Shown here: piece after piece, positions 27,113 to 36,949 of the stretch | How positions within the stretch are numbered: position 1 is the stretch's first letter | Layout: each line of letters opens with the position of its first letter | Origin: Pectinatus cerevisiiphilus | GTDB lineage: Bacteria; Bacillota; Negativicutes; Selenomonadales; Selenomonadaceae | Assembly (NCBI RefSeq): GCF_004341685.1 | Contig: NZ_SMAA01000009.1 | Span: forward strand, 1-64,000 | Reading direction: 5' to 3' | DNA length: 64,000 nucleotides | Program-made: the position numbers and the translations under genes | The notes under the pieces: model-generated | The model's database searches: none | Told to the model about the DNA's origin: nothing | Seen by the model: only the letters and a program-made list of their open reading frames with translations

Positions 27113-27477
27113 AATTTCCCACTCATCTCATATAATAAAGTGTCTTTTTCAGGTAAAACTTTTCTATCATAAAAATTTCCCCTCACACCTGCGTAAAGCT
27201 CTATTAGCAATTATTAAAGAAAATACAATAAGATTGTAACAATTTTTTATTCAAACAGCAATAGTTTGCGTCTTTCTTCTTGACATTATTAGTAATAAAT
27301 CGCATAATTGAGGTGAAATTAATAGTTTTATATATTAAATTTATTGTTCATAATTATATTAAATTTACAAATTCAATATAATTTTATCAGTGGTCTCGCT
27401 AAATTTTGTATTTACAATACATATTCGCAAATTTATCGAAACCACTGATTTTATTATCATCGAAGGAGTTATTCTTT
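27113..27477. other. AT-rich divergent intergenic region with a plus-strand promoter
   Basis: Between ispE and the P-type ATPase homologue there are 365 bp without a supported gene. TTGACA (27280-27285), a 17-bp spacer and CATAAT (27303-27308) form a good plus-strand promoter. It leaves a leader of about 165 nt before the ATG at 27478. I found no recognised metal-regulator operator or riboswitch in the leader. Confidence 0.55.
27280..27308 (+). promoter_or_regulatory. Putative sigma-70-type promoter
   Basis: TTGACA and CATAAT are separated by 17 bp, upstream of the P-type ATPase homologue. Confidence 0.55.
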
Positions 27478-29496
27478 ATGTCCCTCCATCCCATCATACA
27501 TACGAAGGCAAACAACAACGCCACAAAATATCCCCGTCTCATATTATCCACATCCATAATTGCCTCACTATTCCTACTTTACATTTATTTTGCGCCATTG
27601 GCAGGTGCTCCTTTACCTGCAATCATAAATCCACATTATGATCAATGTGCTTTTTTGACCGCCCGTTTCTTCATTATCATATTAATATTACTCATCAATT
27701 ACCAATATTACATAAATAGCAGCAAAGGGCCTAATAACTTTTGGAATTATGACATATTGATCTGTGCCAGTACTATAATACTATTCTTCCTTAGTATCAC
27801 TACGGCGGTTCCCATATTTATGGGTTCTAATCTTCCCACAAATGCTTTTTGGGGAGAAACAGCCGCTCTTATTATCACGTTCGCTGTTGCATTGAAAACT
27901 TATACACTGCATCTCCTGCAAAAATCAGCTGACTCTCTTGACCAGTTCGTCTCCCTTCCTGCTTTCACTACGGTTCTTGATCTTGATACCGACGAAGAAA
28001 AACAGCTTCCCTGCTCAGCCTTGCAAAAAGACGATATTGTCATAATAAAAGACAAGCAAATCATTCCTGCTGATGGAAATATTTTTTGGGGAAATGGTAG
28101 TATTGACGAATCCTGTCTTACAGGGAAAAAAGAGAAAGCAGATAAAGCCTCAGGTGACAAGGTTTTTATGGGAACAATCAATACCAAGGGAACATTCCAT
28201 TATCGTGTATCAGCGTCACAGGATAATTCTGTATTTACCCAGCTTCTTAATATAAAAAACACTTCGACAACTGTAAACACCGCGACGGATCTGTTCGCGC
28301 TAAAAATATCAAAATACTTTACTATATTTACTTTACTTATGGCCGTTTGCACGCTTATTCTTTCTATTTATCTCCAAAAATCTCCTGCTTTCATTTTTTC
28401 CCTTTTGGCCGCTATTTTCGTGACCGGCCTGCTTCACTCTTTTATCAGTTGTACACGCATACAATTTTTAACAACACTCAATAAATTTGCCCGCGCTGGT
28501 ATTTTTTTTAAAACCCCCGCCACAATTGAACAGGCCCGCCACATTGATACAGTCATTCTTGGTAAAACAGGAATACTAACAGAAGGACATCCCGTTGTTA
28601 CCGCGCTCCAAGCAGAAGGTATAACGCCAAAAGTCCTTTTGGCACTGGCCGCAAGTGCAGAAAAAGATTTTGATGTTCCTTTAGCAAGGGCATTAGTCAC
28701 CTCTTCTATAAAAAACCAAGCGCATTTACAACGTATTTCCTCAGCACAACTGCTAACCGGAAAAGGGGTTGAAGCTCTCATCAACGGTGATATCATTCGT
28801 GTGGGAAAAGCTTCATGGTTAGAAGACGAAGGTGTCAAAATCAGCAATGAGCTGCAAATGAAAGCATTCCAGATTGCCCAAGAAGGTGGTACACCTATTT
28901 TTATTGCTTTAAGAAAATATTGTCATGGTGTTTTAACACTGCTTGATCCTTTAAAATATCGTTGCAAAGCTGCGCTCGCACTTCTTCAGCACATGAAAAT
29001 CAACACGATTCTTTTTACCAGCGATAATAAAAATACCGCCAAAACGATTGCCAAAGATTTGTCAATCGATCAATATAGAGCCGAGTTACTGCCCACTGAT
29101 AAGGCACGGGAAATTGATTTGCTGCACACCCATGGACTTACCATTGCAGCCGTTGGCAATGCCGACAATGATTTACCTATGCTGCATGCGGCAGATATAG
29201 GTGTATATCTAAATAACGACATCCAAGCCAATGTTGTCACTGCGGCTGATGTTATCATCCCTGCCAACTCCCTGTATGAAGTAGGCGAAATGATCAGTTA
29301 TTGCCAGTACATAATGAAAAAAATACACCGCAGTTTTTTATTTTCTGGACTCTGCTTATTTTTCATTCTCGTTGGTATCCTAATCTCTCCACTTTACTTT
29401 GCGCAAGCTGCCTTTCTTCCTATAGCAGCCGCTGTTTTAGCGGGAGGTTTAAGCTTTTTGCAGATTAACTTTTCCCACCACTCACGAAAATTCTAA
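27478..29496 (+). CDS. P-type ATPase homologue of the P1B type with degenerate catalytic motifs
   Basis: The 672-aa membrane protein has the overall plan of heavy-metal P-type ATPases: N-terminal membrane helices, actuator domain (IDESCLTG near residue 208), core helices, P- and N-domains, and two C-terminal helices. The key motifs are broken. DKTGT reads GKTGI with Gly362 in place of the phosphorylated Asp. TGES reads TGKK with Lys217 in place of the dephosphorylating Glu. The metal-site CPC is replaced by non-Cys residues. GDGxND reads GNADND near 560, and SEHP is absent. Flanking sequence such as LTEGHPVVT, AELLPTDKA and NDLPML keeps the fold recognisable. Transport by phosphorylation is not expected. 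ATG 27478 has GAAGGAG upstream. The reading frame is intact, so selection for another function is inferred. Confidence 0.82.
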   Translation: MSLHPIIHTKANNNATKYPRLILSTSIIASLFLLYIYFAPLAGAPLPAIINPHYDQCAFLTARFFIIILILLINYQYYINSSKGPNNFWNYDILICASTIILFFLSITTAVPIFMGSNLPTNAFWGETAALIITFAVALKTYTLHLLQKSADSLDQFVSLPAFTTVLDLDTDEEKQLPCSALQKDDIVIIKDKQIIPADGNIFWGNGSIDESCLTGKKEKADKASGDKVFMGTINTKGTFHYRVSASQDNSVFTQLLNIKNTSTTVNTATDLFALKISKYFTIFTLLMAVCTLILSIYLQKSPAFIFSLLAAIFVTGLLHSFISCTRIQFLTTLNKFARAGIFFKTPATIEQARHIDTVILGKTGILTEGHPVVTALQAEGITPKVLLALAASAEKDFDVPLARALVTSSIKNQAHLQRISSAQLLTGKGVEALINGDIIRVGKASWLEDEGVKISNELQMKAFQIAQEGGTPIFIALRKYCHGVLTLLDPLKYRCKAALALLQHMKINTILFTSDNKNTAKTIAKDLSIDQYRAELLPTDKAREIDLLHTHGLTIAAVGNADNDLPMLHAADIGVYLNNDIQANVVTAADVIIPANSLYEVGEMISYCQYIMKKIHRSFLFSGLCLFFILVGILISPLYFAQAAFLPIAAAVLAGGLSFLQINFSHHSRKF

Positions 29497-29570
29497 ACCA
29501 TGTATTATTTGGCAATAAAAATTGGCAAAGGTTTACTGTATATTACAATTTATTTCAGGAGGTCCTTATC

Positions 29571-29783
29571 ATGTTAAAAATGTATATTGATGGTATGAAA
29601 GATGAACATTGCGCTTCTCTTATCAGAGCTGCCTTAGGTGACCTTGAGGGAATGCATGAAATACGGGAAGTCAACTGCTACAAACATTATGCCCTTATCA
29701 GTTGCAATACCGATGAAAATATTTTGCGTGACGCAATCGAAAATGAAGGTTATAATGTAAGCAAAATAGAAAAATGCGACTAA
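29571..29783 (+). CDS. HMA-like small protein with one cysteine left of the metal motif
   Basis: The 70-aa protein has the size and layout of a heavy-metal-associated (CopZ/Atx1-like) domain. The usual GMxCxxC motif reads GMKDEHC here, so the first Cys is Asp and only Cys14 remains. The rest fits a beta-alpha-beta fold (EIREVNCYKHYALISC, then ILRDAIENEGYNV). It follows the degenerate P-type ATPase gene by 74 bp with its own AGGAGG, and the two have probably diverged together. It may bind metal poorly, or it may have become a protein-protein module. Confidence 0.72.
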   Translation: MLKMYIDGMKDEHCASLIRAALGDLEGMHEIREVNCYKHYALISCNTDENILRDAIENEGYNVSKIEKCD

Positions 29784-29811: not shown

Positions 29812-30507
29812 ATGAAAAAAACACTATTATTTCTTTTTTTTCTGCTTCTTTTCATGCCCCTTACCACACATGCTGAAATACGCCAAACAGAAAATGGTAC
29901 AGTTACTGCCAGAGAAAGTGCCTTCACATATCTCCAGCCCGTATCTGCCAATGATACACAGCCTCCCGCAGAAAATAATAATACTGCCAACAAAAAAAAC
30001 AGCTCCACCGTTAAACCAGAAAACCTATTTACTGTTTATGTAAAAACAACACGTTTTTATGATCGCCACAAAAATCATTTCCGCGAATTAGATGAACTTT
30101 CCCTTACTTCGCATAACCAAGGAACTGATTTACTGTTCGATAAAGATTTACCGCCCAAAATCGAATATACCAAAGACGGTATAACCCAAACGCTTCCCTT
30201 GAAAAAAATTTCCTACAACAACCAGTATTTTATATCTTTTAAAATCAAGCATGATTCGCTGACACCGCTTTATACTGCTGATAAAGTAGAGATTGTATTT
30301 CCGGTAATAACTAATGGCAGTCATATACGCCACGTTAAGGATAAAAAAACAGGTAAGGAAAAAACTTTTTATAGTAAACAATCTTTAAAAGAAGATTCTA
30401 CAGTCATCGAAAAGCGTTATACACTACCACCTGAAATCATAAATGAATGGCAACAGGTCCTGACTGCCGACCTAGCTCCTGGTACTATAAAAGATACCCT
30501 GTCATAA
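29812..30507 (+). CDS. Secreted protein of unknown function
   Basis: The 231-aa product has a clear signal peptide (LLFLFFLLLFMPLTTHA, cleavage before EIRQT), then a Pro/Asn-rich low-complexity stretch (about 50-70). A lysine-rich beta-type region follows, with LDELSLTSHNQGTDLLFDK near 90 and KTGKEKTFYSKQSL near 182. No family was recognised. It is 28 bp after the HMA-like gene, probably in the same operon as the P-type ATPase homologue, and the operon ends at the hairpin at 30559. Confidence 0.6.
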   Translation: MKKTLLFLFFLLLFMPLTTHAEIRQTENGTVTARESAFTYLQPVSANDTQPPAENNNTANKKNSSTVKPENLFTVYVKTTRFYDRHKNHFRELDELSLTSHNQGTDLLFDKDLPPKIEYTKDGITQTLPLKKISYNNQYFISFKIKHDSLTPLYTADKVEIVFPVITNGSHIRHVKDKKTGKEKTFYSKQSLKEDSTVIEKRYTLPPEIINEWQQVLTADLAPGTIKDTLS

Positions 30508-30558
30508 AACCAAATGGTTAGTATATATTTTATTCATCTGGAAGGTTTAAAACAAAGC

Positions 30559-30610
30559 AAAAGGAATCATGCAGCAATATTATACTATTGTGTGCATGAT
30601 TCCTTTTGTT
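30559..30610. terminator. Bidirectional terminator
   Basis: The stem AAAAGGAATCATGCA / TGCATGATTCCTTTT is followed by TGTTTTATT on the plus strand and by T-rich sequence on the minus strand. It separates the secreted protein from the convergent dhaM. Confidence 0.8.
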
Positions 30611-30613
30611 TTA

Positions 30614-31003
30614 TTATAATTTCGGCATATTTTTAACTTTTGCCGCCACTTCCAAAACTTTCTCCACGGGACTTCCCAATGATGCTTCCACTGCTGCTAT
30701 GACTGCCCCTTCTAAAACAGGCGCATCTGCTACATAAATACCTTTCTTATTTAATTTTCTTTCATTTTTAATCATATCAGCACAAATTATCGCACTTCCC
30801 AAATCTACAAACAGGACTACCCCATCATCTTTATCTGCCGCTTCAATAGCAGCTTCTACTTTATCAAGGTCAATTCCCAGCCGCCCGTCTTCACTGCCAC
30901 CCGCAGCAGTAATTGGCTGGCCAGGCTTTCCCATCTCAGCAGCAATTTCTCTAATTCCCTCCGCCGCTTTTAAGCTATGCGATACTATTACAATTCCTAC
31001 CAT
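30614..31003 (-). CDS. dhaM: PTS-dependent dihydroxyacetone kinase phosphotransfer subunit DhaM (EIIA-Man type)
   Basis: DhaM accepts phosphate from HPr on a His and passes it to DhaL-ADP, which then phosphorylates dihydroxyacetone bound to DhaK. The 129-aa protein begins MVGIVIVSHS with His9 as the phospho-site. It has ITAAGGSEDGRLGID near residue 32 and VVLFVDLGSAIICADM near 62, as in single-domain DhaM. The partner genes dhaK and dhaL are not adjacent, which is unusual. A DhaM lookalike from another mannose-type EIIA system is possible but less likely, given the GS-DLGSA motif. Confidence 0.85.
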   Translation of the reverse strand: MVGIVIVSHSLKAAEGIREIAAEMGKPGQPITAAGGSEDGRLGIDLDKVEAAIEAADKDDGVVLFVDLGSAIICADMIKNERKLNKKGIYVADAPVLEGAVIAAVEASLGSPVEKVLEVAAKVKNMPKL

Positions 31004-35085: not shown

Positions 35086-35403
35086 ATGCTCAAAGAGAAT
35101 TATACTATAGAATTATTAAATTTAAAAGGATTTAACGTAATAAGGACAGCTGGCAAGGTAATTACTATTTGTCTACCGGTCAAACCACATATATGCCCAC
35201 AGTGTAAGAATGAAACAAGGAAGATACATGATTATAGGTTACAAAAAGTTAAACATTTGCCTGTAGCACATACAAGCTACACTATTTTAATAAAAAAACG
35301 TCGTTATAAGTGTCCTCACTGTAATAAGCGGTTTTATGAGAATAATAGCTTATTGTCTAAATATAAGTCCATAAAGGATCCATACAAAATTTTATGCTAT
35401 TAG
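35086..35403 (+). pseudogene. ISL3-family transposase, N-terminal fragment
   Basis: The 105-aa ORF carries the ISL3-type N-terminal zinc-finger region: CPQCKNETRKIHDYR near residue 38 and the second pair CPHCNKRFYE near 75. Full-length transposases of this family are about 400 aa. After the stop the DDE catalytic part is missing and unrelated sequence (the yafQ gene on the other strand) begins within 50 bp. It is therefore an inactive IS remnant. Confidence 0.72.
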
Positions 35404-35450
35404 TATATCACGTTAAGCAGGTAAATGTGTCCGTGATATTACTCATGCTG

Positions 35451-35726
35451 CTAAAATAATTGGGAATGGCTGCCCAAACGATACAAAAGAAGAACAAGTA
35501 CATCTTCTCTTATTTCATAAACGAGGAGCCAATCTGGATCAATATGGCATTCCCGGCAATCTTTGTATGTTCCACCTAAATTATGGTCTCTGTATTTTTC
35601 ATCCAATTGTTTTCCTTTGGCTAATTGCTCAATGACAGAGAACAGCACATCTATATCTTTGTTCTGCTTCTTTGCTAATTTCAAATCTTTCTTAAATTGA
35701 GTGGTGAATTTTACTTCGTACTTCAT
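35451..35726 (-). CDS. yafQ: YafQ-family mRNA interferase toxin
   Basis: YafQ is a RelE-superfamily ribonuclease that cuts mRNA on the ribosome. The 91-aa protein has FKKDLKLAKKQNKDI near residue 11, the AKGKQLDEKYRDHNLGG block near 36 and the catalytic region ECHIDPDWLLVYEI near 59, with a C-terminal LYRLGSHSQLF. The His and Asp residues typical of YafQ are present. It is translationally coupled to the antitoxin gene by a 4-nt overlap. Confidence 0.88.
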   Translation of the reverse strand: MKYEVKFTTQFKKDLKLAKKQNKDIDVLFSVIEQLAKGKQLDEKYRDHNLGGTYKDCRECHIDPDWLLVYEIREDVLVLLLYRLGSHSQLF

Positions 35727-35995
35727 TTTTCAAGGGCTACACGCAAATCTGTCATATTAGTATACCCTTTTACTTTTTTATCAGTGGCGATTCGGTTGCC
35801 TTCTTCAATAGCAGACCTAGTTATTGCATTAGGAACGTCAAGAGTGAGACGGAAGGGAATGCCATTTTCTCGTATCGTTGTTTTTAAGAAGATGTTTACC
35901 GCTGTCGTCATATTCATTCCCAATGCATTGAATATTTTCTCAGCCTGATTTTTTACTTCCTTATCCGTCCGGATATTCAAATTTGTATTTACCAT
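35723..35995 (-). CDS. dinJ: RelB/DinJ-family antitoxin
   Basis: The 90-aa antitoxin starts with a ribbon-helix-helix DNA-binding domain (LNIRTDKEVKNQAEKIFNALG, then MNMTTAVNIFLKTTI). It ends with a tail that would wrap the toxin. The ATG at 35995 (MVNTNL) has GGGGGTG 8 nt upstream; the open frame extends further upstream without a ribosome site. DinJ with YafQ represses its own promoter in other bacteria. Confidence 0.87.
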   Translation of the reverse strand: MVNTNLNIRTDKEVKNQAEKIFNALGMNMTTAVNIFLKTTIRENGIPFRLTLDVPNAITRSAIEEGNRIATDKKVKGYTNMTDLRVALEK

Positions 35996-36125
35996 ATTCA
36001 ACACCCCCATTTCTGTCTTAAATGTAGCATTATTCTTTGCTGATGTCAACACAATATTAACACAGCGACACAACAAACACACGAATAAAAAATATATTCA
36101 AGGAAACGTTCAGACTGTATAATGG

Positions 36126-36948
36126 TTAATTGTAAAATGAAATTGAACAGATAAAAATCCATAGTGACCTCGTGTTATGATTTAGGTGTCTAATCAAAAA
36201 TATAACCTGAGGTAATCACTATGGACTACAACAATCATAACACGACATTACGTACAAATAAACACTTAAATTTAGAAGAACGTTTTTATATTGAAAAAGG
36301 TTGCTTGCTGGAGATAGTATAACCTCTATAGCCAGTGATCTAGGCCGCTCCAGAACTACAATTTACAACGAAATTAAACGAGGCAGTGTAGTTCAAATTA
36401 AGCAAAATAAAGCAGGTCTTACGTATTTAGCCGATACAGGGCAAACTGTGTATAAAAGGAATCGCCAAGGATCTTTTAATACGTTGCGAGCAGGTTTTAT
36501 TGAGCCTTTTTTATCGCAGATTATATGTAGCGTTACGCTGTCCTTCAGCAAAAGCTGCTAATGTAAAGAATACATTGGCAGATTGGCTTGGGTCTTTTTC
36601 TAAAAACTCAAGTTTAGCTGCTTTATGCAAAACTATTACTTCTGACAATGGTCAAGAGTTTGCAAAAATATCTGAGCTTGAGCGTAGCGGATTGGATATA
36701 TTCTTTGCCCATCCATATTCAGCTTGGGAACGTGGTTCTAATGAAAGACATAATGGGTTGATTCGTCGTTTTATACCTAAGGGTGTTCCTGTTAAAACCA
36801 TTACTGAAGATACCTTAAAACGTGCCATTTATTGGTGTAACAATTTACCTCGTAAATTATTGGGATATAAAACTCCTCAAGAAGTATTTTTAGAAGAAGT
36901 TGGGCAGTTAGTGGATTTACAAACTGTTCAATTTGATATTACAATTTA
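36126..36948 (+). mobile_element. IS30-family insertion sequence remnant with terminal inverted repeats
   Basis: Imperfect terminal inverted repeats of 23 bp (20 matches) lie at 36126-36148 and 36926-36948. They bracket a broken IS30 transposase gene, so both ends of the element survive while the interior is frameshifted and deleted (about 820 bp against the ~1.1 kb usual for the family). Confidence 0.7.
36159..36244 (+). promoter_or_regulatory. Alternative leader hairpins covering the IS30 transposase start
   Basis: Two nested inverted repeats precede and overlap the start codon at 36222. CCATAGTGA with CTC (36159-36171) pairs with GAGGT and TCACTATGG (36209-36224). CGTGTTATGATT (36171-36182) pairs with AATCATAACACG (36233-36244). 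The first hairpin buries the ATG in read-through transcripts, as is known for protection of IS10 and IS50 transposase genes from external promoters. Here this is an inference. Confidence 0.5.
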
Positions 36949-36949
36949 A
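36222..36949 (+). pseudogene. IS30-family transposase, frameshifted and internally deleted
   Basis: The N-terminus (MDYNNHNTTLRTNKHLNLEE, then RFYIEKG) is followed by a frameshift near 36300. The HTH continues in another frame (LLAGDSITSIASDLGRSRTTIYNEIKRG). Central catalytic sequence is missing around 36490-36540. The C-terminal DDE part resumes with TSDNGQEFAKISELE, FAHPYSAWERGSNERHNGLIRRFIPKG and LNNLPRKLLGYKTPQEVF-type sequence. The gene cannot make an active transposase. Confidence 0.85.

Follow-up and report, generated by a model that had tools for sequence, protein, structure and literature searches.

A P-type ATPase pseudo-pump cluster that appears to descend from a copper-export operon

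The window (the whole stretch of DNA analysed here, 64,000 nucleotides from Pectinatus cerevisiiphilus) carries a three-gene cluster in which a copper-pump homologue without its catalytic residues is followed by a small HMA-like protein and a secreted protein. Comparison with related genomes establishes, at the level of sequence, the origin of the cluster in a csoR-copA-copZ operon, the loss of the catalytic residues, the absence of a CsoR operator and a purifying selection that is centred on the nucleotide-binding (N) domain of the former pump. From the same comparisons we infer nucleotide binding, partner binding, expression and a sensor or scaffold role. The reading that explains these features best, to which we give a probability of about one in two, is that of a pseudo-pump that binds ATP without hydrolysing it and that would serve as a membrane-anchored, nucleotide-dependent regulator, sensor or scaffold. 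The fuller account is more tentative, at somewhat short of even odds: a single conversion may have made a whole copper-export operon into a membrane receptor or scaffold that binds ATP but does not hydrolyse it, with a CopZ free of metal as its soluble partner and a secreted protein as a new recruit, giving a conserved P-type pseudo-pump family.

P-type ATPases are defined by their phosphorylated aspartate, and it is this residue that the first gene of the cluster has lost. The gene lies on the forward strand at 27,478-29,496 (672 aa), starting at ATG 27,478 with a Shine-Dalgarno sequence, AAGGAG, nine bases upstream (27,463-27,468). Its product is one of five P-type ATPases in the 2.63 Mb genome and is homologous to P1B ATPases along its full length: both Pfam domains are present (PF00122, E1-E2_ATPase, 1.4e-28; PF00702, HAD hydrolase, 4e-15), a profile search of the PDB finds A. 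fulgidus-type CopA (3j08, 4e-93), and TIGR01525 gives 310 bits, below its cut-off of 346. An earlier note, made from the window alone, had described all the P1B signature motifs as altered, and the sequence bears this out: DKTGT reads GKTGI (Gly362), TGE reads TGK (215-217), GLLHS stands in place of CPC, and GDGxND reads GNADND (560-565). The same sites are changed throughout the genus. Across the five species examined, the phosphorylation site is G/G/G/G/A, the TGE glutamate needed for dephosphorylation is K/D/S/I/K, the metal-binding CPC triad of the membrane is LLH/CPY/YPP/YPQ/YPY, and Asn replaces the first Asp of GDG in every one. The N-terminal HMA domain has been deleted in the window species (G000) and in G003, and what remains of it in the other three is degenerate. 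The earlier note had held that sister species keeping DKTGT would mark a recently inactivated copy; none of the five keeps it, and recent inactivation or sequencing error is ruled out by changes common to all. Replacement of the phosphorylated Asp by Gly in human ATP7A is known as a classical Menkes variant, and the altered protein does not complement yeast ccc2 (PMC5428812), so the pseudo-pump is very unlikely to pump.

The nucleotide pocket has fared differently. In P1B N-domains the adenine contact is a Glu five residues before the His of the HP motif (E640 and H645 in HMA6; PMC5089723), and the residue roles used here are taken from that work. The corresponding E395 and three pocket glycines (G428, G430 and G443) are invariant in all five pseudo-pumps, as are the Lys of DKTG (K363), the second catalytic Lys (K542) and D565. 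The claim that the SEHP motif is missing thus stands only in part: the window protein has EKDFDVPL in place of ESGSEHPL, with VP for HP, but it retains the adenine-contact Glu. A preserved pocket combined with neutralised catalytic aspartates suggests that nucleotide is bound without turnover. In Na,K-ATPase, removal of the phosphorylated aspartate (D369 mutants) reportedly raises the affinity for ATP. Two points count against the nucleotide-binding reading: the isolated N-domains of some P1B ATPases have no measurable ATP binding (PMC5089723), and the HP His, which meets the nucleotide, is Val in the window species, alone among the five. The conservation of the N-domain could also come from a protein interface.

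Selection on the cluster is purifying, and its pattern along the pump is inverted relative to active CopA. The frames of all three genes are intact in the five species. A pairwise maximum-likelihood codon fit, written for this analysis and applied to G000 and G002, gave dN/dS of 0.10 for the pump, 0.04 for its N-domain (residues 379-500), 0.07 for the HMA-like gene and 0.14 for the secreted-protein gene, with 0.01-0.07 for neighbouring genes; saturation of dS makes these values rough, yet the fit strongly rejects omega = 1. Averaged over all pairs of the five species, identity between pseudo-pumps, compared with that between active CopAs, is 26% versus 76% for TM1-4, 40% versus 73% for the A domain, 29% versus 77% for TM5-6, 49% versus 81% and 43% versus 78% for the first and second parts of the P domain, and 16% versus 87% for TM7-8. 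Only the N-domain departs from this trend (57% versus 55%): it is the best conserved domain of the pseudo-pumps, whose remaining sequence averages 34%, and the least conserved in active CopA of both types, where the remainder averages 77%. When the N-domain label was shifted circularly, an equally large contrast arose in only 6 of 650 cases. Of the residues that never vary in the ten active CopAs, 55 occur in no pseudo-pump; the N-terminal and central membrane blocks hold 32 of them, the N-domain five.

These patterns bear on two rival explanations. In one, the operon became redundant after a second csoR-copA took over and is now slowly drifting, as might be read from the fast substitution in the membrane segments, the loss of the N-terminal HMA domain in G000 and G003 and the loss of the CxxC motif from the small HMA protein in four species. 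Such decay is very improbable, given that the frames of three genes have stayed intact in five species despite saturated synonymous divergence, that dN/dS is about 0.1, that the promoter is conserved and that the D-to-N change in GDG is uniform; the suggestion in the earlier note that the changes are not random decay, made from intact frames and good ribosome sites, therefore holds up, and the dN/dS near 1 that would have spoken against it was not found. The other explanation, a passive metal or ion channel built from the membrane domain, had also been put forward there, and the hydrophobic segments are indeed retained in all five proteins. It fares just as badly: constraint is weakest in the membrane part of the protein, the helices of the five species share no polar or metal-ligand residue, and CPC has been replaced differently in each. 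The accompanying idea of a sensor or scaffold agrees with the preservation of the N-domain and is the one that we carry forward.

The ancestry of the cluster can be read from its chromosomal position. In three genomes of two sister genera (G018, G076 and G077), the ispE-adjacent place is occupied by an intact csoR-copA-copZ, whose CopA keeps TGE, CPC, DKTGT, SEHP and GDGIND together with an N-terminal GMTCxxC, and whose CopZ keeps GMxCxHC; the cluster is thus a converted copper-export operon. The pump tree groups the five pseudo-pumps in a single clade (100/100) and gives the CopAs of G018 and G012 as their nearest active relatives, a placement that leans partly on synteny because the pseudo-pump branches are long. 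Each of the five species also keeps a separate active csoR-copA elsewhere (CopA of 855-858 aa). A CopZ-like HMA domain is fused to the C-terminus of this active CopA (L047:6759-9650), so that a separate CopZ would be dispensable. A GC-rich, CsoR-box-like palindrome, ATACCCC-N-GGGGTAT, precedes the active csoR-copA in all five (one arm is one base shorter in two), and the sister genera have a related palindrome before the csoR that lies beside ispE. Upstream of the pseudo-pump cluster, in all five species, there is neither a csoR gene nor a CCC-N-GGG palindrome. The cluster accordingly resembles a P1B-1 CopA operon in whole-length homology, chromosomal place, domain order and the order of pump then HMA gene, and differs from it in the lost phospho-Asp, TGE, CPC, GDG Asp, csoR and CsoR box, in the degenerate or deleted N-terminal HMA domain, in the extra secreted-protein gene and in the inverted conservation pattern.

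The same three genes stand in the same order beside ispE-gntR-glmU-prs in all five species, which answers the question of cluster conservation that the first reading had raised. On the other flank, the stretches compared carry complete or partial dhaM-like and rpoN-type genes and genes for a glyoxalase and a hexokinase. In G001 different genes stand in place of all of these but the dhaM-like one; just beyond the cluster there (L043:14412-15945), a permease, a regulator of the ArsR type and a small protein resembling thioredoxin were assigned by eye. Further along the window, at 35,086-36,949, transposase-like fragments flank a RelE/DinJ-like toxin-antitoxin pair (35,451-36,082), likewise assigned by eye. 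Searched against 189 genomes from the family and 381 from the class, a profile built from the five pseudo-pumps found no further one: the next-best matches score about half as high, and the six checked keep DKTGT.

The second gene (29,571-29,783, forward strand, 70 aa; Shine-Dalgarno AGGAGG at 29,557-29,562) encodes a CopZ-derived HMA-like protein. It matches PF00403 (25.7 bits, cut-off 24.8), its predicted fold is the beta-alpha-beta-beta-alpha-beta of HMA domains, and Foldseek places the model with Atx1 and CopZ (E about 0.003-0.005); fold, Pfam match and position after the pump gene are all as in CopZ. The metal site is not: the loop reads GMKDEHC instead of GMxCxxC, as already described from the window alone, and CxxC is gone in four of the five species, having been lost, as read on the tree, perhaps about three separate times. 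Only G002 keeps it, and a metal role may persist there. Also unlike CopZ, the protein has a new clade-invariant block, AALGDLEGMH, which by predicted topology would lie at the other end of the domain from the former metal loop; Cys45 is clade-invariant as well.

The third gene (29,812-30,507, forward strand) encodes a protein of 231 aa whose N-terminus resembles a signal peptide and which a low-confidence model shows as beta-rich. Searches of Pfam, NCBIfam and the PDB returned no useful domain or relative, and the family has no Pfam entry; IalB-like and P19-like folds were considered and discarded (TM 0.2-0.3, with a poor model of pLDDT 57). The family is sparse: two genomes from another genus of the same bacterial family have stand-alone relatives (L060:8688-9347 and L061:8525-9166, with no pump nearby), and weak ones occur in three other families, so the tie to the pump is specific to the window genus. 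A functional partnership with the pump, as suggested in the earlier note, may exist; its basis is the linkage in five genomes.

The cluster is probably driven by a sigma-70-like promoter, TTGACA-N17-CATAAT (27,280-27,308, forward strand), whose hexamers are invariant in all five species. With this promoter and no CsoR-box palindrome, the former copper operon would have been uncoupled from copper control and remodelled. Just 5' of the pump's ribosome site is a leader hairpin followed by TTTTATTAT (27,386-27,450, forward strand), nearly identical in G002 and similar in G004, with a different hairpin in G003 and none in G001. It folds far better than shuffled sequences (z-scores of -4.8, -5.9 and -4.3 in G000, G002 and G004) and is unique to the pseudo-pump locus in the genomes searched; an Rfam search gave no credible match, and an attenuator or stabiliser is a possible role. 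The cluster ends in a long hairpin with T-rich flanks (30,554-30,614), probably a two-way terminator shared with the gene at 30,614-31,003.

Two further explanations read the conserved residues of the cluster differently. The N-domain may have been kept only because other proteins bind to it, either the HMA-like protein or the cell's own active CopA, with nucleotide binding incidental; the product would then be a plain scaffold, or a partner that inhibits the active pump or assembles with it. Residues that are invariant specifically in this clade and lie outside the pocket (P384, I420, Q424, I439, Y481, H483 and H550) would suit such a surface, as would the missing HP His in one species, the new invariant block of the HMA-like protein and the presence of an active CopA in every species. 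The invariance of all four residues of the adenine pocket, together with that of the two active-site lysines, exceeds what an interface alone needs, and we regard this explanation as unlikely, if the strongest of the competitors. Improbable to a greater degree is a new form of metal handling, in which a non-pumping receptor for copper or another metal has its ligands at new Cys, His and Met positions. Met28-His29 and Cys45 of the HMA-like protein and Cys482-His483 and His550 of the pump are invariant in five species, and H29 (start of strand 2) and C45 (end of strand 3) would be hairpin neighbours in the predicted fold. That closeness is one of predicted topology; the CopZ-type ligands are lost, there is no copper-type operator, and Cys482 is also found in the active CopA of G018 and G197.

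The ATP-binding pseudo-pump thus remains the preferred reading, and its history may be pictured as follows. From a csoR-copA-copZ operon at the same chromosomal place, the ancestor of the genus would have lost csoR and the operator, while the phosphorylation Asp of the pump became Gly or Ala and the magnesium-binding Asp of GDGxND became Asn. The membrane transport path and the dephosphorylation Glu would also have gone, with the nucleotide-binding domain retained, a secreted-protein gene added and the chaperone disabled. The product, most likely, would be anchored in the membrane and bind ATP (or ADP) without hydrolysis, acting as a sensor or scaffold through its nucleotide-dependent conformation; its cytosolic partner would be the CopZ-like protein, now free of metal, and the secreted protein would perhaps join it on the outside. 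Expression would probably be from the cluster's own promoter and independent of copper.

Pseudoenzymes as a kind are well known, and the pseudo-pump resembles pseudokinases in that catalytic residues are lost, the nucleotide pocket is conserved and the protein is retained by a whole clade. Among P-type ATPases, a survey found DKTGT in 99.77%, with 22 scattered single-mutation exceptions that may be sequencing errors, non-functional proteins or highly specialised pumps (PMC3896382); no conserved P-type ATPase pseudoenzyme family is described in the open-licence literature searched. With the aspartate lost long ago and selection focused on the ATP-binding domain, the cluster would show how, in nature, a pump can become a membrane protein that responds to nucleotides. 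Intact operons at the same place in sister genera make the order of losses readable and testable, and the cluster would offer a clear system for what a transporter fold can do without transport.
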